The notes: generated by a model from the letters alone, not told the origin. A stretch of DNA of 32,785 bases from Fibrobacter intestinalis (GCF_900167415.1 NZ_FUWU01000037.1:1-32785), one strand, 5' to 3'. Counted from the stretch's first letter, positions 9,055 through 32,264 are shown. Numbers and translations: made by a program.

Positions 9055-9969
9055 ATGAAGCAGATTGCGTTTATAGACTTGTTCGCCGGAATAGGAGGTA
9101 TTCGTCTTCCGTTCGATGAGTTGGGCTATAAATGCGTTTTCAGTTCGGAATGGGATGCCGCAGCGGCGAAAACCTATGAAGAAAATTTTGGTGAAAAACC
9201 TTACGGAGACATCACTAAAATTTCTTCCAAGTCGATACCTCGCCATGATTTGCTTTTAGCCGGTTTCCCCTGTCAGGCTTTTTCCATTATGGGAAAAATG
9301 GAAGGATTTGCTGATACTCGAGGAACAATGTTTTTTGAAATTCAGCGGATTTTGGAATACCACAGGCCGCAAGCAATTCTTCTGGAAAATGTCAAACAGC
9401 TGGTTTCTCACAACGGTGGAAAAACGTTTTCGACAATTTTATCCATATTGGAGCATCTTGGTTATCACGTCAAGTATAAAGTACTGAACGCTCTGGATTT
9501 TGGCGTTCCGCAAAAAAGGGAGCGCATTATTATCGTTGGATTTAGAAACCTTAGCAAGGCAAAAAAATTCAGTTTTGATTTTACTCCGATTCCTTATAGT
9601 TTGTCGCAAATCCTGGAACGGGATGAGGATGTGGATAAAAGTTTGTTCGCTTCAGAAATCATCCGAAAAAAACGATTGGCTCGTGTGCAGGATAAAGAAA
9701 TTTTCTATCCATCAATATGGCACGAAAACAAATCCAAGAATATCTCGGTTTTGCCCTACAGTTGCGCTTTGCGTACAGGTGCTTCCTATAATTATCTTCT
9801 AGTCAATGGTGTTCGTCGTTTATCCAGTCGCGAACTGTTGAGACTACAGGGTTTTCCCGACAGTTTTAAAATTGTGGTTTCCCATAGCGAAGTCAGGCGA
9901 CAGACGGGAAATTCGGTTTGTGTGCCTATGATAAGAGTCATTGCCAAAAAAATCAAGGAATTGCTATGA
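9055..9969 (+). CDS. DNA (cytosine-5-)-methyltransferase of a type II restriction-modification system
   Basis: Predicted to methylate C5 of cytosine in a specific duplex site. The 304-residue protein has the family's conserved blocks in order: FAGIGG (motif I, residues 10-15, SAM binding), GFPCQAFS with catalytic C73 (motif IV), LLENVK (motif VI, residues 109-114), PQKRERIIIVGF (motif VIII), a short target-recognition region around 190-250, RRLSSRELLRLQGFP (motif IX) and RQTGNSV (motif X). The recognition sequence cannot be read from this. It overlaps the next gene in an ATGA junction. It sits inside the rml operon, and hand counts of sample lines give roughly 37-48% G+C, lower than its rml neighbours, pointing to acquisition by transfer. 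Confidence 0.95.
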   Translation: MKQIAFIDLFAGIGGIRLPFDELGYKCVFSSEWDAAAAKTYEENFGEKPYGDITKISSKSIPRHDLLLAGFPCQAFSIMGKMEGFADTRGTMFFEIQRILEYHRPQAILLENVKQLVSHNGGKTFSTILSILEHLGYHVKYKVLNALDFGVPQKRERIIIVGFRNLSKAKKFSFDFTPIPYSLSQILERDEDVDKSLFASEIIRKKRLARVQDKEIFYPSIWHENKSKNISVLPYSCALRTGASYNYLLVNGVRRLSSRELLRLQGFPDSFKIVVSHSEVRRQTGNSVCVPMIRVIAKKIKELL

Positions 9970-10709
9970 ATAATTTGCCCGAACCAAAATTACGAGATGA
10001 AAATAAACTGCACAAAAACGAAGTCTTTCGTGAAGGGGAATTCGGCGATGATGTCGTTAAAAAAATTGGAGCACGCATTGTTTATTTGATATACACAGGG
10101 CGAAATGATCTTAGTGGGGATGATTGGGCGGATATTTTTGCTGCCAGTGTCGGGGGGCAGTCGTTTAATTCTCCGATAGGAATCGCGGATGTTGCTTTAA
10201 ATAAATGCGCATGGTCTATGAAAACGGTCAAAAATTCCAGTCCGTTTAGTGCTACTGCGGTAAGGCTTATTTCTGGTCGTTGTTCTCCGGACTATAGTTA
10301 TGGAATTGAAAATCCCCATGATGATGTTCAAAAAACGGGAAATGCGGTTCTTGCCATTTATAATAGTCGAGTCCAGATTTCCTATGTGGATTACAATCCT
10401 GTTCGAACTTGTGTGCTGGTTCGGAACCCTTTGCTTTCAGAATTTGTGTTGTTTGAGCATCGGTTGGAAAGTTATGCGATAGCAGATTACCGATGGACAG
10501 AAAACGCCAAAGGAAATTTTGAAGGAATTCGAAAAGCGGATGACCAGCATTGTTTTACATGGCAGCCCCATGGAAGTCAGTTCACTATTGTGGAGCGAGT
10601 GCCTGATACAGCGGTTAAATTTCGCTTGCGAATTCCGGAACGATTGCCGCTAGAAGTCGCTTTGCAGAATATGAATTTTGATGATTCCTGGGTAAGCATA
10701 ATAAAATAA
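9966..10709 (+). CDS. Probable type II restriction endonuclease partner of the cytosine methyltransferase
   Basis: I do not recognise the family with certainty; the call rests mainly on context. The 247-residue soluble protein starts at an ATG that overlaps the methyltransferase stop (ATGA, 9966-9969), the usual arrangement of a restriction-modification pair. Its sequence shows a PD-(D/E)xK-like core: SPIGIADVALNKCAWSMKTVK around residues 69-89, with D75 and K86 in the right order. The second acid of the motif would be S84 here, so the active site is non-canonical. A preceding acidic helix (GEFGDDVVKKIGARIV) could supply another ligand. Later segments are rich in aromatic and basic residues. 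Codon and base use match the methyltransferase rather than rml genes. The alternative is an unrelated accessory nuclease. Confidence 0.7.
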   Translation: MNNLPEPKLRDENKLHKNEVFREGEFGDDVVKKIGARIVYLIYTGRNDLSGDDWADIFAASVGGQSFNSPIGIADVALNKCAWSMKTVKNSSPFSATAVRLISGRCSPDYSYGIENPHDDVQKTGNAVLAIYNSRVQISYVDYNPVRTCVLVRNPLLSEFVLFEHRLESYAIADYRWTENAKGNFEGIRKADDQHCFTWQPHGSQFTIVERVPDTAVKFRLRIPERLPLEVALQNMNFDDSWVSIIK

Positions 10710-16666: not shown

Positions 16667-17239
16667 ATGGATTTGACAATCATTTTCATTCTGATAGCCA
16701 TCGTGCTGCTCTCTTTGGTGCTTGCCGGTTTGGGAGCTTATGTGGTCATTCACAATTCGGATGAAAAGGAAAAGGAATCGGCCTCTCCGGTCATCGATGT
16801 CTCTGGCCAGTATGCGGTGATTGTTCGCCCGGCTCGTGAATCGATCGAAAAGGTAAAACCTTCTTTGGAAGATCTGGCGAAATGGCTTTCTACCACGGGC
16901 ACTAGTCCAGAGGAGCAGGCTCGCTTGATCGAGTCTTGGAAAAAAAGTATCGACGATGTGGTCAAGGTGGTCGATGAGGGCGATAGGAATGGAACGGTGA
17001 CTTACCGCATTGTGATTGGTCCAAGGAGCCGTCCGTTTTGTAATTTCTTGAGCGACGACAACTATGTGACCCGGGAACAGATTCGGAACCACGCAGAAAT
17101 TTTGCCTCCGTATGTTCTGGGTTGCGATTGCCGTCTTGTACCCAAGCTCCCTTGGGAAAATCCGGGAAAGGCTGGCTGGAAAGCCCTTGTTCCGGAAAAT
17201 GGAGCTTACAGCGTTCCCGATTGGAGACACATTGCGTAA
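16667..17239 (+). CDS. Membrane-anchored hypothetical protein
   Basis: Unrecognised family. The 190-residue protein has one strong N-terminal membrane segment (about residues 3-26: DLTIIFILIAIVLLSLVLAG) without a clear cleavage site, followed by a charged stretch (NSDEKEKES) and a soluble domain of ~150 residues. The soluble domain has a helical charged middle and a C-terminal part with three cysteines in CNF...CDC arrangement, rich in Pro and Trp. The ATG at 16667 was chosen because the membrane segment begins there; an open frame to 16631 has little support. Its last 8 bases overlap the start of the next gene, so it is translationally coupled to the PorV-type protein and may work with it. 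It could be a periplasm-facing accessory protein. Confidence 0.7.
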   Translation: MDLTIIFILIAIVLLSLVLAGLGAYVVIHNSDEKEKESASPVIDVSGQYAVIVRPARESIEKVKPSLEDLAKWLSTTGTSPEEQARLIESWKKSIDDVVKVVDEGDRNGTVTYRIVIGPRSRPFCNFLSDDNYVTREQIRNHAEILPPYVLGCDCRLVPKLPWENPGKAGWKALVPENGAYSVPDWRHIA

Positions 17240-19406
17240 AATTCTTCTTTTGTCTTTCCTCTGTTCGGCGGTATCTTTTGCGGCGAACTCGGCGATTATT
17301 ACTTTGGAAATGCCCGTTGGTACGCGTCAGCTGGGTATGGGCGAAACCGGAGTCGCTATTGCGGACGACGCTTCGGCTTTGTATTACAACCCCGCAGGTC
17401 TCGCTTTTGGACCTTTGGCGAACGAGTGGGAAGTTTCTCTGGAGCAGAAATCGGATAAAGTCCCGGCGATAACCAAATTGGCTGCAAAAGGTCGCGCCGG
17501 CTTTTTTGAAAAAAGCGAAATTTGGGCGGGAACGAACAGCGGCATTCGCCATTATGACGGCGAGCACTGGTCCGATTATTTTGTGGTCACGCTGGAAGGA
17601 CAAGAGAAAATTCGCGATGCGGTTCGTGTCTTTGCGGGAACGGAATCGGGTTTGGACGAATACACCCGGAAAGTGAAAAAATTTAACGACGTGCAGAATG
17701 ACGTGGACGAATCCTACGTGCGCGATGTGAAAATTCCTTGGAATCTGGTGGTCGGCGATACCGTGACGGCTCTTTTATATGACGCGCGAACCGAAAAATT
17801 GTGGGTGGGCACGCCGAAAGGACTTTTCCGTTTTGACGGCAAGACCTGGAAAAATTACGAATCCGAATTGGGAACTCCGCGTGTGACCGCTCTCGCGAGC
17901 CAGGGGGCGACGCTTTGGATTGGAACGGACAACGGGCTTTTTTCTTATAGAAATGGCGTTGTGGAACAAAAGGGAAAAGTGCTTCCCAGTCAAAAAATCA
18001 ACGCGATTGCCTGGTCCGAATTCAAAGGGGAACTTTATGTGGCTGCGGATGGAGCGGGCATCGCTCGCCTTGTTCCCAAAAAAGGTTCCAATACCAAAGA
18101 CCGCTGGAGCCTGTTCAACGAAGAAGATGGCTTGATGGATTTGCATTCGACGGCTCTCGTGGTGGATTCTTCGGGGCACGTCTGGTCGGCGCACAACGGT
18201 GGACTTTCGCATTTTAATTTGCGCAAGTGGGAGCAGGTCCGTTTTGAAAGCAACGTGGTCAATGATCTGGCTGTTGCCAAAGACGGCGCGGTTTGGATTG
18301 CGACGAATAAGGGCGTGTGGCGTCATTTACCGGATTACGCGACCTCTTCTGGAAAAAAAGCCGAATTGGAACGCAAACCGGAGGAACGGGGAAATCAGCA
18401 GTCCGAAGACGAGTGGGAGCATTTTCATTCGGGCAACGGGCTTTCTTCGAATCATGTCTGGGCGGTTCTTCCGCAGGCGAATGACGTCTGGTTCAGCACG
18501 AGCACGGGCATAGAACGTTACAAAGACGCGGATTATCAGCTCACCTTTTTCTACGAAAAATTGTTGCCGGTTTTGAATATCCCGGATTTGTATCATCTGT
18601 TTGCGGGTTTGACCATTCCCCTTGCCGAATGGGGAACTCTGGGCGTCTCCGTGAATTTTGTGTCGTTTGGCGAAACGGTCGTTTCGACGGATGACGAAAG
18701 CTCCACGAATTCCAATAGCTCGGAAGTTGTCGGGGCCATCAGCTACGGAACGAAGCTTTCGCAAAAATCTTCTATCGGCTTGTCGATTAAATTTTTCTAT
18801 TCGGACTTGAGTTCCGGGGCATCGTCTAGCGGCGATGAAGCGACGACTTTCAGCTACGCCTTTGACGTGGGCTTTTTGCGCCGGGACTTTTTGATTCGGG
18901 ATTTGAGCGCGGCGATTGTGCTTGCCAATATCGGCCCGAGCGTTTATTACACCGACAAGTCGGATCAGGACCCGATTCCTTTGACTTGGCGTCTGGGGCT
19001 TTCCTACGAAATTTTGAATACTCTCGACCATCGTTTGCTGATAGCCGCCGATTATAACCGCACTGTCGTTTATGACGATGATAAAGGCGACCCGGAACCG
19101 TTCTATACGGCGATGTGGAAAAGCCTGATTCATCCGGAACTCGGCGGGCATGGCGCGACGCGTTTCAAAAATTCCTTGCTTCAGGGCATTTTCAATGTCG
19201 GCGCGGAATACACCTATTCCAATACGGTCGCTGTGCGAATCGGTTATCTTTACGACAAGACCGGCAAGCGCAACGAAGTGGATTTGGGCTTGGGCGTGAT
19301 GCTCTCGGACGTGCTGGAATTTGATATTGCGACCATCAAGGATGTGGGCGACAACGACGGCGTTCGCGATGGGCAAATGCGCTTTGGAATGATTTTCAAA
19401 TTCTAA
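17232..19406 (+). CDS. PorV/PorQ-like outer-membrane protein with an inserted beta-propeller
   Basis: Predicted outer-membrane protein of 724 residues. Start: a TTG at 17232 with GGAG at 17223-17226, five bases away, which gives a clean signal peptide MRKILLLSFLCSAVSFA; an ATG at 17199 would add an odd 11-residue leader. Residues 25-60 carry the PorV-type motif: MPVGTRQLGMGETGVAIADD, then ASALYYNPAGLA. Residues about 75-435 hold about eight WxGT-GL-type repeats of the two-component-regulator propeller kind, for example IWAGTNSGIRHYDG, LWVGTPKGLFRFDG and LWIGTDNGLFSYRNG. From about 437 the sequence returns to barrel-like amphipathic strands to the end, with a final aromatic-ended strand MRFGMIFKF. 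So a propeller seems inserted after the first barrel region. It is coupled to the genes on both sides. Confidence 0.75.
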   Translation: MRKILLLSFLCSAVSFAANSAIITLEMPVGTRQLGMGETGVAIADDASALYYNPAGLAFGPLANEWEVSLEQKSDKVPAITKLAAKGRAGFFEKSEIWAGTNSGIRHYDGEHWSDYFVVTLEGQEKIRDAVRVFAGTESGLDEYTRKVKKFNDVQNDVDESYVRDVKIPWNLVVGDTVTALLYDARTEKLWVGTPKGLFRFDGKTWKNYESELGTPRVTALASQGATLWIGTDNGLFSYRNGVVEQKGKVLPSQKINAIAWSEFKGELYVAADGAGIARLVPKKGSNTKDRWSLFNEEDGLMDLHSTALVVDSSGHVWSAHNGGLSHFNLRKWEQVRFESNVVNDLAVAKDGAVWIATNKGVWRHLPDYATSSGKKAELERKPEERGNQQSEDEWEHFHSGNGLSSNHVWAVLPQANDVWFSTSTGIERYKDADYQLTFFYEKLLPVLNIPDLYHLFAGLTIPLAEWGTLGVSVNFVSFGETVVSTDDESSTNSNSSEVVGAISYGTKLSQKSSIGLSIKFFYSDLSSGASSSGDEATTFSYAFDVGFLRRDFLIRDLSAAIVLANIGPSVYYTDKSDQDPIPLTWRLGLSYEILNTLDHRLLIAADYNRTVVYDDDKGDPEPFYTAMWKSLIHPELGGHGATRFKNSLLQGIFNVGAEYTYSNTVAVRIGYLYDKTGKRNEVDLGLGVMLSDVLEFDIATIKDVGDNDGVRDGQMRFGMIFKF

Positions 19407-20050
19407 TGCAACCTCCTATCAACTATCAGAAACTGCTCGACAATTTGCTGTGCCGCTTGGAGAAAAGCGGGGAAGTGCCGACCCTGCTGCTGCATTGTTG
19501 CTGCGCTCCGTGTTCAAGCTACGTTCTGGAATATCTTTCGAATTATTTTCGGATTACGACGTTTTATTACAACCCGAATATTTACCCTGCCGAAGAGTAT
19601 GCGCATCGCGTGTCGGAACTCAAGCGTTTCGTTTCGGAATTTCGGACGAAATTCCCTGTCCGGTTTTTGGAAGGAAATTACGATCCTGAACGTTATTATG
19701 CGGCGGTCAAGGGTTTGGAAAAGGAGCGCGAAGGCGGGGCGCGTTGCGTCAAGTGCTTTGAACTGCGCTTGGGCGAAGCGGCGCAACTGGCTAAAGAATT
19801 GGGCATGGATTATTTCACGACGACGCTTTCGATAAGCCCGATGAAGGATGCGACCCTGCTGAATGAAATCGGCGAAGCGATGGCGCAAAAATTTGGAGTG
19901 AAACATCTTCCGTCCAATTTTAAACGGGGGGGTGGCTACAAGCGTTCCATTGAACTCTCCCGCGAATATAATCTGTATCGCCAGAATTTTTGCGGTTGCG
20001 TGTATTCCAAACTCGAAAGGGAAAAGGCGGAAGCAGAGAAAAATTTGTGA
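19406..20050 (+). CDS. queH: Epoxyqueuosine reductase QueH
   Basis: Reduces epoxyqueuosine to queuosine in tRNA, the last step of that modification (QueH is the alternative to QueG). The 214-residue product has the family's cysteine pattern: LLHCCCAPCSSYV (C31, C32, C33, C36), GGARCVKCFELRL and NFCGCVYS near the C-terminus. It also has YNPNIYPAEEY, TTTLSISPMKD and YRQNFCGC. The cysteines bind an iron-sulfur cluster and a further metal site in the studied family members. The ATG overlaps the stop of the previous gene by one base (TAATG), so it is translated with the barrel protein; I see no functional link and think this is simply operon sharing. Confidence 0.95.
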   Translation: MQPPINYQKLLDNLLCRLEKSGEVPTLLLHCCCAPCSSYVLEYLSNYFRITTFYYNPNIYPAEEYAHRVSELKRFVSEFRTKFPVRFLEGNYDPERYYAAVKGLEKEREGGARCVKCFELRLGEAAQLAKELGMDYFTTTLSISPMKDATLLNEIGEAMAQKFGVKHLPSNFKRGGGYKRSIELSREYNLYRQNFCGCVYSKLEREKAEAEKNL

Positions 20051-20267
20051 TGAATTAGAAAATTCTCTGGCCTGGAATTTTTGATCAGTTCTTTCCCTCG
20101 TTTTCTTTGGAGCTGCCTTTTGTTGGCAACATATTCTATTTCATTAAAATTGATTTTGTACAAATGACGAATGCTTGTGAAATTTATTCTTCGTTTTTTT
20201 CGCTAGATTCTTTGTTAGAAAAATTTGACAGACACTTCTAAAAATATTTTGATAAAGAAAAAGAGTA

Positions 20268-20342
20268 AGATTGAGCAATGCCGGGAACGAGAAAAATCTC
20301 CGCGTTGTCGCCACCCCGAAATGCGAAATGAGGGAGCAATCT
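20268..20342. repeat. Palindrome-bounded repeat element
   Basis: AGATTG (20268-20273) and CAATCT (20337-20342) bound a 75-bp G+C-rich block standing out from AT-rich surroundings. The style resembles short dispersed palindromes found in many bacterial intergenic regions. Confidence 0.4.
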
Positions 20343-20372
20343 TCGGACAACAAACCTGACGCCCTGTTTAAA

Positions 20373-20421
20373 GATTGCTTCACTACGTTCGCAAAAACGT
20401 GGAGCGCAATGCGTCGCAATC
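20373..20421. repeat. Palindrome-bounded repeat related to the element at 32568
   Basis: GATTGC (20373-20378) and GCAATC (20416-20421) bound the block. The 11-mer GATTGCTTCAC (20373-20383) recurs at 32616-32626 inside the other repeat element, which suggests a common dispersed family. Confidence 0.5.
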
Positions 20422-20490
20422 CATTTTTGAAGATGAACTTTTAGAGGATGCCTAAGATGAATTATTCCGCATTGAGGTGACCGTTTTTAT

Positions 20491-20613
20491 TCTCCATACA
20501 AACTTTTTGATTTGAACGGGAAATTGCTTCGTTCTGGAGTTCTCCGCGGTAGAACTCTCTCCACGCCGCCTTCGCCTGCAGTTCTCGAAATTGGCGGGAA
20601 AAGGAAATTCTGA
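20491..20613 (+). pseudogene. 3' relic of a secreted-protein gene (C-terminal tail only)
   Basis: An open stretch encoding about 40 residues (SPYKLFDLNGKLLRSGVLRG and onward, ending at TGA 20611-20613) matches the C-terminus of the gene at 23266-24048. Positions 20491-20602 align without gaps to 23920-24031 with 11 differences in 112 bases. Seven of the ten differing codons are synonymous, which says the copy was under protein-level selection until recently. Sequence upstream of 20491 does not match, and a stop codon lies in frame at 20473, so the front of the gene is lost. The final residues differ (KRKF instead of KKFLLR). It is the left-hand member of a direct repeat flanking the two-gene cassette. 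Confidence 0.75.
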
Positions 20614-20634
20614 AATAAAAACAGAAAATATTTT

Positions 20635-20662
20635 TTTTTTGACTATATTTGTTCTGTATAGA
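20635..20662 (+). promoter_or_regulatory. Possible promoter of the cysteine-protease-like gene
   Basis: A T-run followed by TTGACT (20639-20644), TATATTTG (20644-20651) and TATAGA (20657-20662). Spacing from TTGACT to TATAGA is only 12, but T-rich sequence at 20635-20640 could serve as a weak -35 with a 16-nt spacer. It lies just upstream of the GGAG site at 20667-20670. Confidence 0.3.
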
Positions 20663-20677
20663 TGCGGGAGAATATAA

Positions 20678-23266
20678 ATGTTCTATCGTTTTCTCATCTT
20701 GTTGCTGTTTTTTATCTGTTCTGCATCGGCCGTCACGGTGGAAAGCCGTGACGAACAGCTTTCGAACGTCTCTCAAACATCCCTCCGTATTCGTCTTTTT
20801 AACGATTCTGGCGATTCGCTCAAAAACGTGGAATTGCGCTATTTTCTCTCGAAGAAGAAATTGCCGGTTCATGTAGAAAAGTATTATCCGGCAAATTTGC
20901 TTGCAGAAATGGTGTCCCCGGATTCTGGCTCGCCATTTTTGAAAATATCAATCCCCACAATTGCTCCCGGCGTTTTCCCAGACAGTGGGGGCATTTCGCT
21001 GGGGTTGCATTTTGCCGATTGGAGCGACTTCGAAAAGGAGAAAGATTTCAGTTATCCTTCGTCGGAAAATTTCATTGCCACGGGGAAAATTGCGGTTTAC
21101 ATGAATGGGGAATTTGTACAAGGCGTTCTTCCGGGAAGCCTTTCGGAGGCGAATCCGTTTTCGCTACAGTCGGGTTCTGGATTTTCTCTTTCTCCCGGAG
21201 AAAAGGTGCATTTCGCTTGGCGAGAAGTCGATGGGGCGAACAGCTACCGTTTGAACATTTTATCTGCGGCGGATTCCGCGGTTGTTTTGCGACAGGAAAC
21301 GGAAGCGACCAAGGTTGACGTGGCTTTGGATTCCGGGGAGTATTTGTGGAATGTGGAGGCTTCCGAATATGGTCTGGGGAGTGCCGCATGGAATTGGGAC
21401 GTGAAGCCCTTGGACGACTTGTTTTGGCAACGGATTTCGGTTTTTACCGATACTGCCTGGATTCTTGAAAATAAGCTGGATGTGACACCGCTTGCCGCTC
21501 GCAAGGACACTCGGCTTTTGGATGTCAAATGGGGCGAAATGGCAGTGGCGCGGGAATGGGACAAGCCGCATTTGGGACACGGGCATTACGACGAGGAGGA
21601 AAGTTACCGCTGTTGGGCTGTCGGGGCGCAGGTTTTGAATCATTATTACGGTGGAAATATCACTCAGGACGAGATAAAGTTGAAGTTTAAAGGTTATCCG
21701 GGTCTAGCCGTTTTTTCGGATTCTGTTAAGGCAAAAATTCTTGGGGCGTTTTTGCATTATTATCAAGGAGGACTTGATACTATATATTTTTCTTCTTTGT
21801 TGCTTTGGGTATTGAATGATTATGCTTCTCTAATTCGCAAAGATTCTCTTCCATCGGAAAATGATGTAAAAACTTGGATTGATGCTGGCGTTCCTCTTTA
21901 TGTTTGGACTGAACGCCATGTGATGATTCTGGATGCGTATCGGGTTTCGCTTTCGGGGCGCATGGATGTGCGCCTGTTGAATACGGACAACGACGGGACG
22001 GTGGAATGGCGGGTTTTGAAATCCTCCGCGCTGGAAGGCTTTATTGCGGCGACCGTGAACGGTCCCGTCCGGATGACCGACGCACGAATCCACACAGATG
22101 GCGACGATGACGGTATGATGGATTACGATGAAATCGAACGCTTTGGAACGAATCCGGGAAATTCGGATTCCGACGGCGATGGCATTGACGACAAAACGGA
22201 AGTGCTTTCTTATACGATACGAGATACTCTTTCTAATGATACAATGGGTCTAAGACGCGGTTTAAATCAATTGACTTTTGCGGATATAGATGAAGACGGA
22301 CTTCGTGCAGAATTGGACTTTGATTCGGACGGTGGCGGTAAAGCTGACGGGGAGGAAGATAAAAATAAAAATGGATTGAAAGACGGTGACGAATCCGATG
22401 TATATGATGCCGGCGATGATTTGAAATTGGTAGAAATTGATTTGGATGTTCCTGATTCGATAACTCTTTATGCGTTAGGACGTTTGTCTGTGAACGATGG
22501 AGTGAAATGTCGTCAGAACTCAAAAAATTGTGACATTGCTTCGGAATCAAAAGATTCGGCTTATGCGGTAAATATAGGACGCAGTGCTTATGTTCGTCGG
22601 ATTGATGCAAAAGGAGGCGTTTTGTTGAGAGATTATGCAACGGTTACTGGAAATATCCGAATTCATTCTTTGCCATTGCGCAATCTTTCTCTAACATTGC
22701 AAAATAATGCGAATTTTAGTAGGACCTCTTTTTCTCAACTAGAAGCTCTTTGGCCCTATCGTGTTGCCGAACTGCCTGAAATGCAAAATGTGGGGCTGGC
22801 GACAAAAGAAATTTTCTATAACGAAAGTTATACTTTAAAAGACGGAGATAGGTTTAAAACGTTGAAGGTGCATCCCGGCGGAACGCTTTTGATTGAATCC
22901 GGCGAAATGTACGTCGGCAATATTCAATTGGAATCTGGCAGTAAGGTGCTTTTTGTGAATCCGGGAAAGCGAACCATTTTGCATCTGGACGGCAGCGTGA
23001 TTTGGCGTTCTAGAGCTTTAAACGATGATTTGGAAAAAGTCGGTAAGGGTTTCAAAGTCATTCAGTATGGCACAGAAACAATGATCGTCGAAGGAATGTG
23101 GGCGGGGACGATTTTTGCGCCGAATGCAGATTTGATTTTAGGTCAATCCAATAAAAAACTTTACGGACGTTTTTTAGGCAAGAACGTAACCGTTCACCAA
23201 TACGCGCAAGTTTATAGTGTTCGTTTTAATCCAGAAACAAACTCTGTTATCGCCAGGAGGAAATGA
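20678..23266 (+). CDS. Secreted multidomain papain-like cysteine-protease-type protein
   Basis: Predicted secreted protein of 862 residues. Residues 1-18: signal peptide. Residues about 25-150: a CBM3-like fold (SLRIRLFNDSGDSLKNVELR, then the FADWSDFEKEKDFSY and IAVYMNGEFVQG motifs typical of cellulose-binding family 3). Residues about 165-240: a fibronectin-III-like unit. Residues about 300-460: a papain/C39-like peptidase, with YRCWAVGAQVLNHYYGG (C312), RHVMILDAYR (H414) and LNTDNDG (N435/D437) as the candidate triad; I do not see an obvious oxyanion glutamine. Residues about 472-575: acidic calcium-binding repeats such as DSDGDGIDD. Residues about 650-855: a beta-rich region ending GTIFAPNADLILGQ...GKNVTVHQYAQVYSVRF, resembling surface-anchor domains. 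GGAG at 20667-20670 supports the start. Composition is mosaic. The gene overlaps the next at ATGATGA. Protease activity is inferred. Confidence 0.75.
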   Translation: MFYRFLILLLFFICSASAVTVESRDEQLSNVSQTSLRIRLFNDSGDSLKNVELRYFLSKKKLPVHVEKYYPANLLAEMVSPDSGSPFLKISIPTIAPGVFPDSGGISLGLHFADWSDFEKEKDFSYPSSENFIATGKIAVYMNGEFVQGVLPGSLSEANPFSLQSGSGFSLSPGEKVHFAWREVDGANSYRLNILSAADSAVVLRQETEATKVDVALDSGEYLWNVEASEYGLGSAAWNWDVKPLDDLFWQRISVFTDTAWILENKLDVTPLAARKDTRLLDVKWGEMAVAREWDKPHLGHGHYDEEESYRCWAVGAQVLNHYYGGNITQDEIKLKFKGYPGLAVFSDSVKAKILGAFLHYYQGGLDTIYFSSLLLWVLNDYASLIRKDSLPSENDVKTWIDAGVPLYVWTERHVMILDAYRVSLSGRMDVRLLNTDNDGTVEWRVLKSSALEGFIAATVNGPVRMTDARIHTDGDDDGMMDYDEIERFGTNPGNSDSDGDGIDDKTEVLSYTIRDTLSNDTMGLRRGLNQLTFADIDEDGLRAELDFDSDGGGKADGEEDKNKNGLKDGDESDVYDAGDDLKLVEIDLDVPDSITLYALGRLSVNDGVKCRQNSKNCDIASESKDSAYAVNIGRSAYVRRIDAKGGVLLRDYATVTGNIRIHSLPLRNLSLTLQNNANFSRTSFSQLEALWPYRVAELPEMQNVGLATKEIFYNESYTLKDGDRFKTLKVHPGGTLLIESGEMYVGNIQLESGSKVLFVNPGKRTILHLDGSVIWRSRALNDDLEKVGKGFKVIQYGTETMIVEGMWAGTIFAPNADLILGQSNKKLYGRFLGKNVTVHQYAQVYSVRFNPETNSVIARRK

Positions 23267-24048
23267 TGAAAAGACTTGGGATGATTTTTTTAGTGCTTTA
23301 CATGTTTGATTTCACTCATGGATTCTCTCCTTTTTTCGGAGATTTTTGGTTGGACTTTATACAGATTGATACATTAAAAGTTCAGGAAAATATTTGTGAA
23401 GTTTATGCGGATGCTTTTGTTGATAGTACTAAAAAAGAAGATTTCCTTGGACGTGAAAATTGTTTTTATGGGGGAGGCACTTTGGGTATTTTATCTCAGT
23501 TAGATACTACTGTTGCATTCTATATTAACGATATTAAGCTCGGACCTTATTTTTATATAACAAGAAATCAACAAGCCTGTGAGGGCGAATCTTTGGCGTG
23601 GTTAGAAACAGTAGGAACTCCGGGGACTCATCAATTTAGTGAAGTTTTGATTTTTGAACTTTTGCGTTTTCAAGAACTGGGCGTAATCACAAATGAACGA
23701 GATAGTTTTGAAATTCAATTAAAAGATACTTTGGCCTCAATGATTGCAAGAAAAGATTACTGCCCAGATTTGGAATCCACAGATGGCATGATCGGACCGA
23801 ACTGCTGCTCTCTCGTGGAAAGCCCTTCGGCAATTCCTATGCGTTTTTTTGTGCAAAATACTTTTCGGGTGTCAAAAATTTCTCAAGGCAAATTCCATAT
23901 CGACGGCGTAGCTCTCGGCTCTCCGTACAAACTTTTTGACCTGAATGGGAAACTGCTCCGTTCTGGAGTTCTCCGCGGTAGAACTATCGCCACGCCACTC
24001 TCGCCTGCAGTTCTCGAAATTGGCGGGAAAAAGTTCTTATTGCGCTAA
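23266..24048 (+). CDS. Secreted hypothetical protein with a C-terminal sorting-like tail
   Basis: Unrecognised body. The 260-residue product starts MKRLGMIFLVLYMFDFTHGF, a signal peptide. The ATG at 23263 is also possible, but AGGAGG at 23255-23260 sits two bases from it and five from 23266. The middle is acidic, AT-rich and has several cysteines (a CC pair in GPNCCSLVE near residue 190). The final ~45 residues (YKLFDLNGKLLRSGVLRG, then PAVLEIGGKKFLLR) resemble the C-terminal tails of secreted Fibrobacter and Bacteroidota proteins (type IX-like sorting domains). Base composition jumps from about 30% G+C in the body to about 57% in the tail on hand-counted lines. It is coupled to the protease-like gene by overlapping ATG and TGA, so it may be a partner, inhibitor or substrate. 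Function unknown. Confidence 0.7.
   Translation: MKRLGMIFLVLYMFDFTHGFSPFFGDFWLDFIQIDTLKVQENICEVYADAFVDSTKKEDFLGRENCFYGGGTLGILSQLDTTVAFYINDIKLGPYFYITRNQQACEGESLAWLETVGTPGTHQFSEVLIFELLRFQELGVITNERDSFEIQLKDTLASMIARKDYCPDLESTDGMIGPNCCSLVESPSAIPMRFFVQNTFRVSKISQGKFHIDGVALGSPYKLFDLNGKLLRSGVLRGRTIATPLSPAVLEIGGKKFLLR
23920..24031 (+). repeat. Direct repeat, right-hand copy (matches 20491-20602)
   Basis: 112 bp with 101 identical positions and no gaps compared with 20491-20602, same orientation, 3,429 bp apart. It codes for the C-terminal tail of the gene it sits in. Recombination between the copies would delete the two-gene cassette or rebuild a complete tail on the lost gene. Confidence 0.85.
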
Positions 24049-24071: not shown

Positions 24072-24890
24072 TTATTCGTCAAAAGTCCCTTCAAAGACAA
24101 ATTCCGCAGGTCCGGTCATCATCACGTGCGAATTGTCTTCGCGCCACTCGATGTGGAGGGTTCCGCCCAAAAGTTCCAGATCGATTTCCCTTTCTGTTTT
24201 GCCGTTGAGAACGCAAGCGACGAGAGTTGCGCACGAACCCGTGCCACAGGCGAGGGTTTCTCCAGTTCCGCGTTCCCAGACCCGCATTTTGGCGTGAGTC
24301 GGGGAAAGCACTTCTACAAATTCGATATTCGCTTTTCTCGGAAACGCTTTGTCCATTTCGTAGGCGGGACCTTTGGTGAGGACGGGAGCTGTTTGGACGC
24401 TATCGACAAAAGTTACCGCGTGCGGGTTACCCATCGATACGCAAGTGAATTCCCGCCCGTCAATTCGGATGCGGTTTGTCGGTGCGGCAACAGGAATTTG
24501 TTCGGGTTCCAAAATGGGAGCACCCATGTCAATCGTTGCGGATTGAAAATTTTTGCCGTCATGGTGAATGACGATGTGCTTAATCCCCGCTCCGGTTTCC
24601 AAATCGAATTCGTCTTTTTCTTTTTGGAAAAAACGTTCCCATGCAAAACGCGCCACGCAGCGGCTCGCATTCCCGCACATTTCCGATTCGCTGCCGTCTG
24701 GATTGAACATTCTCATGCGGATGTCCGCTTTGTCGGATGAGCAAATGAGGACAAGCCCATCGGAGCCGACTCCGAAATGCCTATCGGAAATTTTTGGGGA
24801 AAGTTCTGCGGGATTTTTGACGACTTCGTTTCGGTTGTCGATGTAGATGTAGTCGTTTCCCGCACCTTGCATTTTGGTAAAAGCAATCAT
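24072..24890 (-). CDS. dapF: Diaminopimelate epimerase
   Basis: Interconverts LL- and meso-diaminopimelate, supplying lysine and the peptidoglycan cross-link residue (cytoplasm). The 272-residue protein has full family length. The two catalytic cysteines are in their motifs: SEMCGNASRC (C72) and LACGTGSC (C215). FTKMQGAGNDYIYIDN at the N-terminus, FGVGSDGLV, MFNPDGSESE and VSMGNPHAV are further family signatures. Its start overlaps the stop of mnmA by 4 bp (ATGA), so it is the second gene of that leftward operon. Confidence 0.97.
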   Translation of the reverse strand: MIAFTKMQGAGNDYIYIDNRNEVVKNPAELSPKISDRHFGVGSDGLVLICSSDKADIRMRMFNPDGSESEMCGNASRCVARFAWERFFQKEKDEFDLETGAGIKHIVIHHDGKNFQSATIDMGAPILEPEQIPVAAPTNRIRIDGREFTCVSMGNPHAVTFVDSVQTAPVLTKGPAYEMDKAFPRKANIEFVEVLSPTHAKMRVWERGTGETLACGTGSCATLVACVLNGKTEREIDLELLGGTLHIEWREDNSHVMMTGPAEFVFEGTFDE

Positions 24891-29849: not shown

Positions 29850-32264
29850 ATGAAATTTTGCGCTCTTTTGGCAGGAATTGCTGTCGCGGCAACTTTTAGC
29901 TTTGGACGAGTCGGTCCTGTGAGCCAATATGGGCAACTTCAGGCGGGTAAAAATACGAATGGCGCGGGAAGAATTTACGGTTCCTGTCCCGCTTATTCCA
30001 CTTCGGGAAACGAAGTTCAAGTTCAGGGCATGAGCCTTTTTTGGAGCATAGCTGCCGATGTGGGCACTCCGTTTTGGACGGCGGATATTGTATCTGGGCT
30101 TGTCGAAAAACAGAACATCCAGTTGATTCGCGCGCCGATGGGTGTCGATGAAGACTGGGGCTCCGGAAATTACTTTACAAATTCATCTTATTATCAGGGG
30201 CTAATGAATACGGTGGTGCAGGCGGCCATCAGTAACGATATTTATGTGATTATCGACTACCATTCTCACAAGGCGAATGAAAATGTGGAAAATGCCAAGA
30301 CGTTTTTCAAATACATGGCGGAAAAATGGGGAAAATACGACAATGTGATTTTTGAAGTTTTTAATGAACCCACAGAACAAAGCTGGGGAACGATCAAGAG
30401 TTATGCCGACCAGGTGATTTCCGTTATCCGCCAGTATTCCGACAACTTGATTATCGTGGGAAGCCGTAATTGGGACCAGTATCCCAATGAAGCGATTTCT
30501 AATCCGATTTCGGATAAAAACGTCGCCTATACGTTCCACTATTATGCGGGAAGTCATTATACAAATAAGGAAGGTGCGAATGCGGTTACGGCGATGAACG
30601 CAGGCCTTTCCGTTTTTGTCTCGGAGTGGGGAACGGTTGACGCTTCGGGCAATGGCGGTTTTAATAGCGGCAATAGCGCCACTTGGCTGAACTGGATGAA
30701 CAATAATAAACTCTCTGGCGCAAACTGGTCCGTTTCCAATAAAGATGAAAGTGCTTCGTATTTTAATGGTTCGGCGTGGAATTATTCGGAAAGTGGAAAT
30801 TGGGTGAATACGAATGTTTTCAGCAAATTGCCGACTTCCTACAAAGCGTGTTCGGGCGTTTCGGTGAGCTCTAGTTCAACGGCTTCCAGCTCTTCGTCGA
30901 TCCCGGCGGGCTATACGGATTATATTGACGATTTTGAAGATGGGGACTCTTTGGCGTTTACCGGAGGTGTCTGGTATGCTTATACAGATAAGGGCGATGC
31001 AGGGCAGTCTTCGATTTCGAACACCCCGAACACGGATAAAAACGGCGTTGCGGGTTATGATGTTGTTTTTTCTGCTGACAACGGCACTCAAAATATGGCG
31101 GGGCTAAAAAAAATCGTTCTTTCGCAAGGCGGGAATAAATACGAACCTTATGTCGCGTTGGGAGTCAAGCTGAATCCGGATGAATCGGCTTATGATTTGT
31201 CGAGCTGCAATACGATTTCCTACAAATACAAAGGTGCTGCGCACAACTTTAAAGCGGAAGATATGAATGTTTCCGATTATGGCTTCCATCAGGTAGCTAA
31301 ATTGGCAACGAATTCCTGGACTTCGGTCAATTTGTCTTGGTCGCAGTTGAACCAGCCTTCGTGGGCCGATGCAGTAACCCTTTCCCAAAAGCGCATCAAT
31401 AAGTTCACTTGGGAAATCAAGGGCGATTTGAAAGGAACGCAGCCGACCTACAATTACTTGTACATCGATGATGTGCGCTGCAATGGAATGGCCATTAAGC
31501 CGGTCGTTCCGGCTTCCAGCAGTTCGGGAAAATCCAGTTCTTCTGCGGCATCTTCATCGAGTGTCAAGCCTTCTAGCTCTTCAGCGATTTCCTCGTCGAG
31601 CGTCAAACCATCCAGTTCTTCAGCGATTTCCTCGTCGAGCGTCAAACCATCCAGCTCTTCGGCGATTTCCTCGTCGAGTGTGCAATCCTCTAGCTCCAGC
31701 ATTTCAACCTCTTATATTGTAGCAGGAAATCTGTCGCAGACTGTCGCCAAGGGAAGTTCAATAGAAACCGTTACGATTTCGAATGTGACTTCTTTTATCC
31801 GGCTTTCTTGGAATTTGGGCAGCTTCGGCAGCCTGAATGTGGAGCCTTCAGGAACAACGGTGACAATTTCCGGAAAAGTTGAAACTTGGGCTTCCGTCGG
31901 CAAAGTCACTGAAACTTTGGTGATTAATGGAGACACGGTGTATTTCAACATGAGCATTGTGGAAGAAGGAACGGAAATTTCGAGTTCCTCGGCGGAAAAC
32001 GGCTCCAGCAGCTCGGACGGTTCAACGGAGATTGTCATGCTTCCTTCCATGTCCTCTCTTTCTGTTGCGCTTGTCGGGCGCTCTTTGGAAATAGCGAGTG
32101 CGAATCCCGTAAACGTGGAAATCTTCGATATGCAGGGACGTCTTTTGAAGAGAATCCCGCAGGTGAATGGCTTGGTTTCGTTGGCATCCTTGCGGCAGGG
32201 TTCCTATATCGTTCGGGTACGTTCGCTTTCGTCGAATTGGACAAGACGAATTTCGATTCGTTGA
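29850..32264 (+). CDS. Secreted GH5 endoglucanase with carbohydrate-binding domain and Ser-rich linkers
   Basis: Predicted extracellular cellulase that cuts beta-1,4-glucan. Of 804 residues, 1-19 form a signal peptide. Residues about 20-335 are a GH5 catalytic domain, with acid/base E173 in IFEVFNEP and nucleophile E259 in VFVSEWGT; HYYAG and IIDYHSH are also family features. Residues about 351-547 form a CBM11/30-like beta-sandwich starting DYIDDFEDGD. About 548-620 is a Ser/Ala/Pro linker with three tandem VKPSSSSAISSSS units. About 621-708 is a beta domain I do not recognise. After a second Ser-rich linker the last ~75 residues end in a sorting-like tail (VEIFDMQGRLLKRIPQ, then GSYIVRVRS). 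A GAGGT site lies 5 bp before the ATG. The gene has its own promoter and terminator. Confidence 0.93.
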   Translation: MKFCALLAGIAVAATFSFGRVGPVSQYGQLQAGKNTNGAGRIYGSCPAYSTSGNEVQVQGMSLFWSIAADVGTPFWTADIVSGLVEKQNIQLIRAPMGVDEDWGSGNYFTNSSYYQGLMNTVVQAAISNDIYVIIDYHSHKANENVENAKTFFKYMAEKWGKYDNVIFEVFNEPTEQSWGTIKSYADQVISVIRQYSDNLIIVGSRNWDQYPNEAISNPISDKNVAYTFHYYAGSHYTNKEGANAVTAMNAGLSVFVSEWGTVDASGNGGFNSGNSATWLNWMNNNKLSGANWSVSNKDESASYFNGSAWNYSESGNWVNTNVFSKLPTSYKACSGVSVSSSSTASSSSSIPAGYTDYIDDFEDGDSLAFTGGVWYAYTDKGDAGQSSISNTPNTDKNGVAGYDVVFSADNGTQNMAGLKKIVLSQGGNKYEPYVALGVKLNPDESAYDLSSCNTISYKYKGAAHNFKAEDMNVSDYGFHQVAKLATNSWTSVNLSWSQLNQPSWADAVTLSQKRINKFTWEIKGDLKGTQPTYNYLYIDDVRCNGMAIKPVVPASSSSGKSSSSAASSSSVKPSSSSAISSSSVKPSSSSAISSSSVKPSSSSAISSSSVQSSSSSISTSYIVAGNLSQTVAKGSSIETVTISNVTSFIRLSWNLGSFGSLNVEPSGTTVTISGKVETWASVGKVTETLVINGDTVYFNMSIVEEGTEISSSSAENGSSSSDGSTEIVMLPSMSSLSVALVGRSLEIASANPVNVEIFDMQGRLLKRIPQVNGLVSLASLRQGSYIVRVRSLSSNWTRRISIR
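31563..31679 (+). repeat. Three tandem 39-bp repeats coding the Ser-rich linker
   Basis: Starts at 31563, 31602 and 31641 encode VKPSSSSAISSSS three times in frame, with a near-match partial unit on each side. Differences are few and mostly synonymous. Copy number can change by slippage, changing linker length without breaking the frame. Confidence 0.85.

Follow-up and report, generated by a model that had tools for sequence, protein, structure and literature searches.

A probable family of recombining secreted-protein cassettes with a T9SS-type sorting tail, seen at a decayed locus of Fibrobacter intestinalis

Introduction

The closest described relatives of the locus reported here are T9SS cargo genes of Porphyromonas gingivalis, in which Kgp, RgpA and HagA undergo allelic exchange and domain rearrangement (PMC5266723). 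The CTDs of T9SS cargo have been shown in other species to be both necessary and interchangeable; they can be swapped among cargo within one species, but not always across species (PMC11285876). Gene conversion of tandem variable coding segments with conserved flanks is known from the vls locus of Borrelia and the pil genes of Neisseria (PMC11499132, PMC4023411). Polymorphic toxin arrays combine a conserved trafficking part with a variable module, contain stubs of large genes, and are spread as cassettes by recombination (PMC3482391). Additionally, in Bacteroides fragilis the genes for C10 proteases share transcripts with inhibitor-like genes (PMC2873492). In the literature we searched, which covered few subscription papers, there is no description of such variation in Fibrobacteraceae.

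Here we analyze a stretch of 32,785 nucleotides from F. intestinalis (GCF_900167415.1, NZ_FUWU01000037.1:1-32785), called the window below. A preliminary description of its sequence had pointed to a secreted two-gene cassette between direct repeats made of a protein's tail, and had proposed that proteins with a common sorting tail are exchanged, deleted or re-tailed there. We followed up these claims with profile searches, structure models and comparison to related genomes. The locus is very probably a decayed A-B cassette of a Fibrobacteraceae-specific family of secreted-protein genes that are recombined between the 3' end of gene A and the tail of gene B.

Results

The window contains two 112-bp direct repeats, as had been described (Table 1). 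They have the same sense and are identical at 101 of 112 positions (90%) without gaps, with an E-value of 3e-38 against the whole 3.29-Mb genome. The right copy indeed lies inside gene B, the last gene of the cassette. Both cassette genes start with a signal-peptide-like N-terminus, read from the sequence, which agrees with a secreted pair. At the codon level, 8 synonymous and 3 nonsynonymous changes separate the two copies (pS 0.25, pN 0.04), bearing out the claim that the codon differences are mostly synonymous and that the copies diverged mostly while coding. A search for further tails, suggested at the outset, revealed no spread over many genes: the next-best copy is 73% identical and lies on contig C77, where it neighbors a paralogous A-B cassette, and is followed only by matches of 20-25 nt. 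The similarity of the window repeats thus exceeds that of generic paralogues. A scan of the genome's contigs found only three loci. In the C77 cassette, an assembly gap of Ns (L016:3296-5069) falls inside the B region, where an array of repeated tails would be likely to break an assembly.

Table 1. Coordinates of the cassette and its surroundings in the window
Feature	Position	Strand	Basis or remark
queH	19406..20050	+	left border of variable site; Pfam QueH; synteny in five relatives
B0 pseudogene	20050..20612	+	B-family gene directly 3' of queH; codon 3 is a stop; middle lost
N-terminal body relic of B0	20092..20232	+	body type of G003_B1/G004_B2, not that of window B
REP-like dispersed repeat	20370..20453		inside the lost B0 middle; partial matches at ~13 other places in the genome
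Left 112-bp copy	20491..20602	+	tail (T9SS-type CTD) of B0; 90% identical to right copy
Gene A, 862 aa	20678..23266	+	AF2 model, Foldseek, Pfam/NCBIfam, PDB profile search
Papain-like (C10/C39-like) peptidase domain of A	21464..22057	+	C312, H414 and N438 invariant in family alignment
Gene B, 261 aa	23263..24048	+	signal peptide, Cys-rich body, T9SS-type CTD tail; AF2 mean pLDDT 81.7
Tail domain of B, aa 202-261	23866..24045	+	seven-strand CTD; strands E202-E260 in model
Right 112-bp copy	23920..24031	+	tail of gene B
dapF	24072..24890	-	right border of variable site; tblastn synteny

The left copy had been taken for the sole remnant of its gene, and here the preliminary description was wrong. 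Three-frame translation and tblastn, together with matches of a B HMM at 20095-20229 and 20494-20604, identified a pseudogene, B0, whose ATG overlaps the queH stop. Its middle (20233-20490) is lost, and the filler there contains a REP-like repeat. The surviving N-terminal relic shares 52-53% amino acid identity with B bodies of two relatives, G003 and G004 (tblastn E 2e-7 to 4e-7), and in a DNA alignment it scores 15.5 against G4_B2 and -21 against the window's B, with -18 for the best shuffle. This relic and the left tail share one reading frame; a complete B gene was thus formerly present at this place. It and the intact B are of different body types, and the window therefore carries two such types joined to almost the same tail.

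We next consider the protein that carries this tail. The body of B is alpha/beta in the AF2 model; it matches no family in Pfam, NCBIfam, PADLOC or PHROGs, and Foldseek returned no convincing PDB fold beyond the tail. We conclude that gene B encodes a Cys-rich protein of a previously undescribed kind. A defense or phage origin was rejected for lack of any PADLOC or PHROGs match, and no RNA family was found in the cassette region. The modeled tail has the form of a type A CTD, an immunoglobulin-like 3+4 beta-sandwich that takes up about 60-100 residues at the very end of the protein. Its top Foldseek match is RemZ in the T9SS translocon, and RgpB-type (gingipain) and PorZ CTDs are among the best; probabilities are 0.96-1.0, with weak E-values of 0.016-0.12. 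Aligned by hhalign with 17 CTDs of the same genome, the B-tail profile reaches a probability of 86.6 (E 4.5e-6, 34 columns). Standard T9SS models, including TIGR04183, give no score for the window's B tail, whereas fold and profile do match, so we regard the tail as a divergent member of the CTDs. The common sorting tail that had been postulated is therefore a T9SS-type sorting domain by fold and profile. The genome also encodes a T9SS translocon, with SprA far above its cut-off and a PorV family protein within the window. Given the fold, the profile match and SprA, B is likely exported by the T9SS. The tails are conserved as protein across the whole B family. Purifying selection also acts on B bodies (pN/pS about 0.15-0.5); since B is moreover kept in genomes that lack an intact A, we take it to be the product under selection.

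Gene A encodes a signal peptide, a CBM3-like module (target-based TM of 0.7-0.78 in Foldseek, PDB profile 2e-9), an Fn3-like domain, a papain-like peptidase, TSP3 repeats and an adhesin-like choice-of-anchor-A/ice-binding-like solenoid. We saw no T9SS tail on A itself. The peptidase region, modeled by AF2 with moderate confidence, has a papain-like fold with Cys followed by His, as in C10/C39-like peptidases, and Peptidase_C10 and C39_2 match two of the 12 family members. Because A has a cellulose-binding module, our best guess is that B is a variable surface or secreted protein for the plant-fiber surface.

The stop codon of A and the start codon of B overlap as ATGA, and an A 3' end terminates at most 35 nt upstream of B in 29 of the 36 B genes examined. 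These A sequences are often stubs of 11-120 aa with ragged 5' ends, some without a signal peptide; in two, an internal deletion has joined the A signal peptide to the A C-terminus. The stub sequence is conserved (pN/pS about 0.1-0.3). We considered a functional mini-A peptide and rejected it, as the ragged lengths and missing signal peptides indicate remnants and no set peptide. We read the stubs as deletion remnants that retain the ribosome-binding site of B. This site lies in the last A codons, so a B gene copied with its translation signals brings the A 3' end along. Intact A is absent from G003, a complete genome with six open B genes, and from G001, and both keep B. The example of G003 implies that a resident A is dispensable for B.

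Comparison among relatives, which the preliminary description had recommended, showed that the locus is not invariant. The set comprised one genome per species, some of them incomplete MAGs, with loci chosen for containing the family, and it includes Fibrobacter sp. UBA4373, Fibrobacter sp. UBA1765 and a Fibrobacteraceae MAG from yak cecum. ManC-FKBP-PorV-QueH on one side of the site and DapF-MnmA-TyrA on the other are conserved. QueH and DapF are direct neighbors in G001, are separated by a GH5-like gene in G003 and G005, and enclose B0-A-B in the window; G002 and G004 have a similar gene 3' of QueH, in compared stretches that end before DapF. The A-B family of G003 and G004 is located elsewhere. 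The empty site of G001 bears no tail scar.

Several other features of these regions deserve mention. The PorV-family protein at 17112-19406 has two-component-regulator-type propeller repeats inserted within its PorV match, along with a weak PorZ match; it is a possible PorV/PorZ-like fusion and is conserved in six of six genomes of the genus. At 9055-10709, between rmlB-like and rmlC genes of a dTDP-sugar operon, a C5 cytosine methylase gene is followed by an overlapping gene of 263 aa that has no Pfam match and may encode its restriction partner. The GH5 cellulase at 29850-32264 ends in a recognized T9SS type A sorting domain, and its serine-rich linker is encoded by 39-bp tandem units (31532-31687). 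In the relatives, transposase-like genes adjoin the B array of G003 (L013:14117-14572) and the single B of G001 (L015:26-808), a possible route for moving cassettes.

B genes are mosaics of body and tail. In G003, a sister species, six B genes stand in tandem with tails 92-99% identical in nucleotides and bodies mostly 48-61% identical; all six are complete open frames, each with its own Shine-Dalgarno-like sequence. The divergent block starts just 3' of the start codon and ends at about column 550, which none of 100 shuffles reached. Identity is 93-95% outside the block and 44-47% inside, giving the conserved flanks and sharp breakpoints of a gene-conversion cassette array. Another divergent block, upstream of B in some pairs, was set aside as partly a register artifact of ungapped A ends of unequal length. 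A pair on contig C60 of the window's own genome repeats the pattern (bodies 49%, tails 94%), and the front half of G004_B2 matches G003_B3 and then departs from it. Between species, G113 and G56 have tails with 0 differences and a body pS of 0.33, and conversely G51_B3 and G62 have a body pS of 0.04 and a tail pS of 0.66.

Phylogenies agree with this picture. Monophyly of the G003 array (with G4_B1) is rejected by the body data (p 1e-69), and the tail tree groups the array (support 99/97). Similarly, the window's B and G3_B2 are sisters by body (100/100), a grouping that the tail data reject (p 9e-7). Housekeeping genes of G003 and G004 are 83-85% alike and their B units up to 97-100%, which points to transfer of B units between these species. 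The bodies of B have had a history apart from that of the tails across Fibrobacteraceae. Of the earlier proposal, exchange and re-tailing therefore stand, with unlike bodies on near-identical tails and the converse in arrays, within a genome and between species; at the family level this reading of the alignments is well supported. We saw no deletion or excision of A and B by recombination between the tail copies of the window.

Could the same pattern arise from ordinary tandem duplication and divergence, with tails kept alike by protein conservation and bodies diverging faster? The B genes are tandem paralogues, and their tails are protein-conserved family-wide. However, duplication predicts agreeing trees and equal synonymous divergence in body and tail, and we found the opposite. 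Tails are near-identical at synonymous sites too (in G003, in the C60 pair and between G113 and G56), which protein-level constraint cannot explain, whereas pS in the adjoining bodies rises to as much as 0.3, or their identity is close to random, and like bodies carry unlike tails. We consider duplication by itself a very unlikely account.

Two further explanations were considered. B might inhibit the papain-like peptidase of A or protect against it, and vary by co-evolution with A; the Cys/His/Asn signatures of A, the overlap of B with the A stop codon and the B. fragilis precedent (PMC2873492) all suit such an operon. Yet B is retained without intact A in G003 and G001, has an export tail, resembles no inhibitor family and is far more variable than the C-terminal region of A, so that we judge inhibition unlikely. 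Alternatively, the genes could be polymorphic toxin or immunity cassettes of inverted layout, with a variable front and a conserved C-terminal sorting domain. Arrays of variable modules beside stubs of a large secreted protein do resemble orphan cassette arrays (PMC3482391), but domain searches detected neither a toxin nor an immunity domain, the individual B genes come without immunity genes of their own, and the A end adjoining B is conserved rather than variable. This explanation seems highly improbable to us.

Discussion

Exchange of B bodies and tails between flanking homologous sequences is the reading that we favor. We infer that ordinary homologous recombination or gene conversion copies and exchanges B genes, with diversification as the benefit. 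The A 3' end, carrying the ribosome-binding site of B, and the tail would serve as homology arms on either side of the body, and each exchange would give a resident tail a new body or a resident body a new tail. In the window, the upstream B0 formerly combined another body with the same tail before it became a pseudogene. By extension, recombination may vary surface proteins in living populations. A point against this explanation is that the tails are locus-specific and not genome-specific, which offers no advantage for fitting one T9SS.

It is tempting to go further and propose a dedicated diversification system of Fibrobacteraceae, which would shuffle T9SS cargo bodies, both inside a species and from one species to another, between two fixed arms (the A 3' end and the sorting tail) and would let any incoming body be expressed and exported immediately. 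We hold this to be doubtful. The breakpoints of exchange vary and we found no recombinase.

Some A genes of the family contain poly-G tracts, which could allow on/off switching. In the 483 kb of loci examined, five of six poly-G/C tracts of at least 8 lie in or beside A-B family genes (L017:2500, L017:7313, L018:5134, L013:7486 and L051:6486), a pattern noticed post hoc and open to sequencing error. At L017:2500, a G8 tract coincides exactly with a break of the reading frame in the contig C60 A gene, resembling slipped-strand phase variation.

These cassettes of fiber-degrading gut bacteria offer a clear natural example of an export signal, that of likely T9SS cargo, recombining independently of the cargo body. 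A shared address tag with a swapped front part would be a natural route to diversify proteins destined for the cell surface. With the matched sets of bodies and tails in the arrays of the sister species, one can ask directly whether the T9SS tails of Fibrobacteraceae can replace one another, and which pressure maintains the diversity of B bodies.

How does this compare with known systems? As in the C10 protease/inhibitor pairs (PMC2873492), the gene for a secreted papain-like protease is followed immediately by a gene for a small exported protein; unlike them, B is kept without A in other genomes, has a T9SS-type tail and resembles no inhibitor. Like polymorphic toxin arrays, the B genes join a conserved trafficking part to a variable module, are accompanied by stubs of a large gene and spread as cassettes through recombination, but the variable part is N-terminal and the trafficking part C-terminal, and we do not class them as a toxin system. 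Tandem variable coding segments, conserved flanks and gene conversion are likewise common ground with vls and pil. There the segments are silent, whereas each B copy is a complete open gene that has a start and a ribosome-binding site of its own, and the G003 array does not consist of one expression site with silent donors. The likeness is closest to the P. gingivalis cargo, where T9SS surface proteins with shared C-terminal modules have domains changed between loci and strains by recombination and gene conversion. In that species the variation affects large adhesin modules in a small number of gingipain/HagA genes, whereas in the tandem arrays of Fibrobacteraceae the whole body of a small protein, including its signal peptide, is replaced between the A 3' end and the tail. 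We conclude that the B cassettes are a variant of the P. gingivalis type of exchange that occurs in a different phylum and in which a different unit is exchanged.
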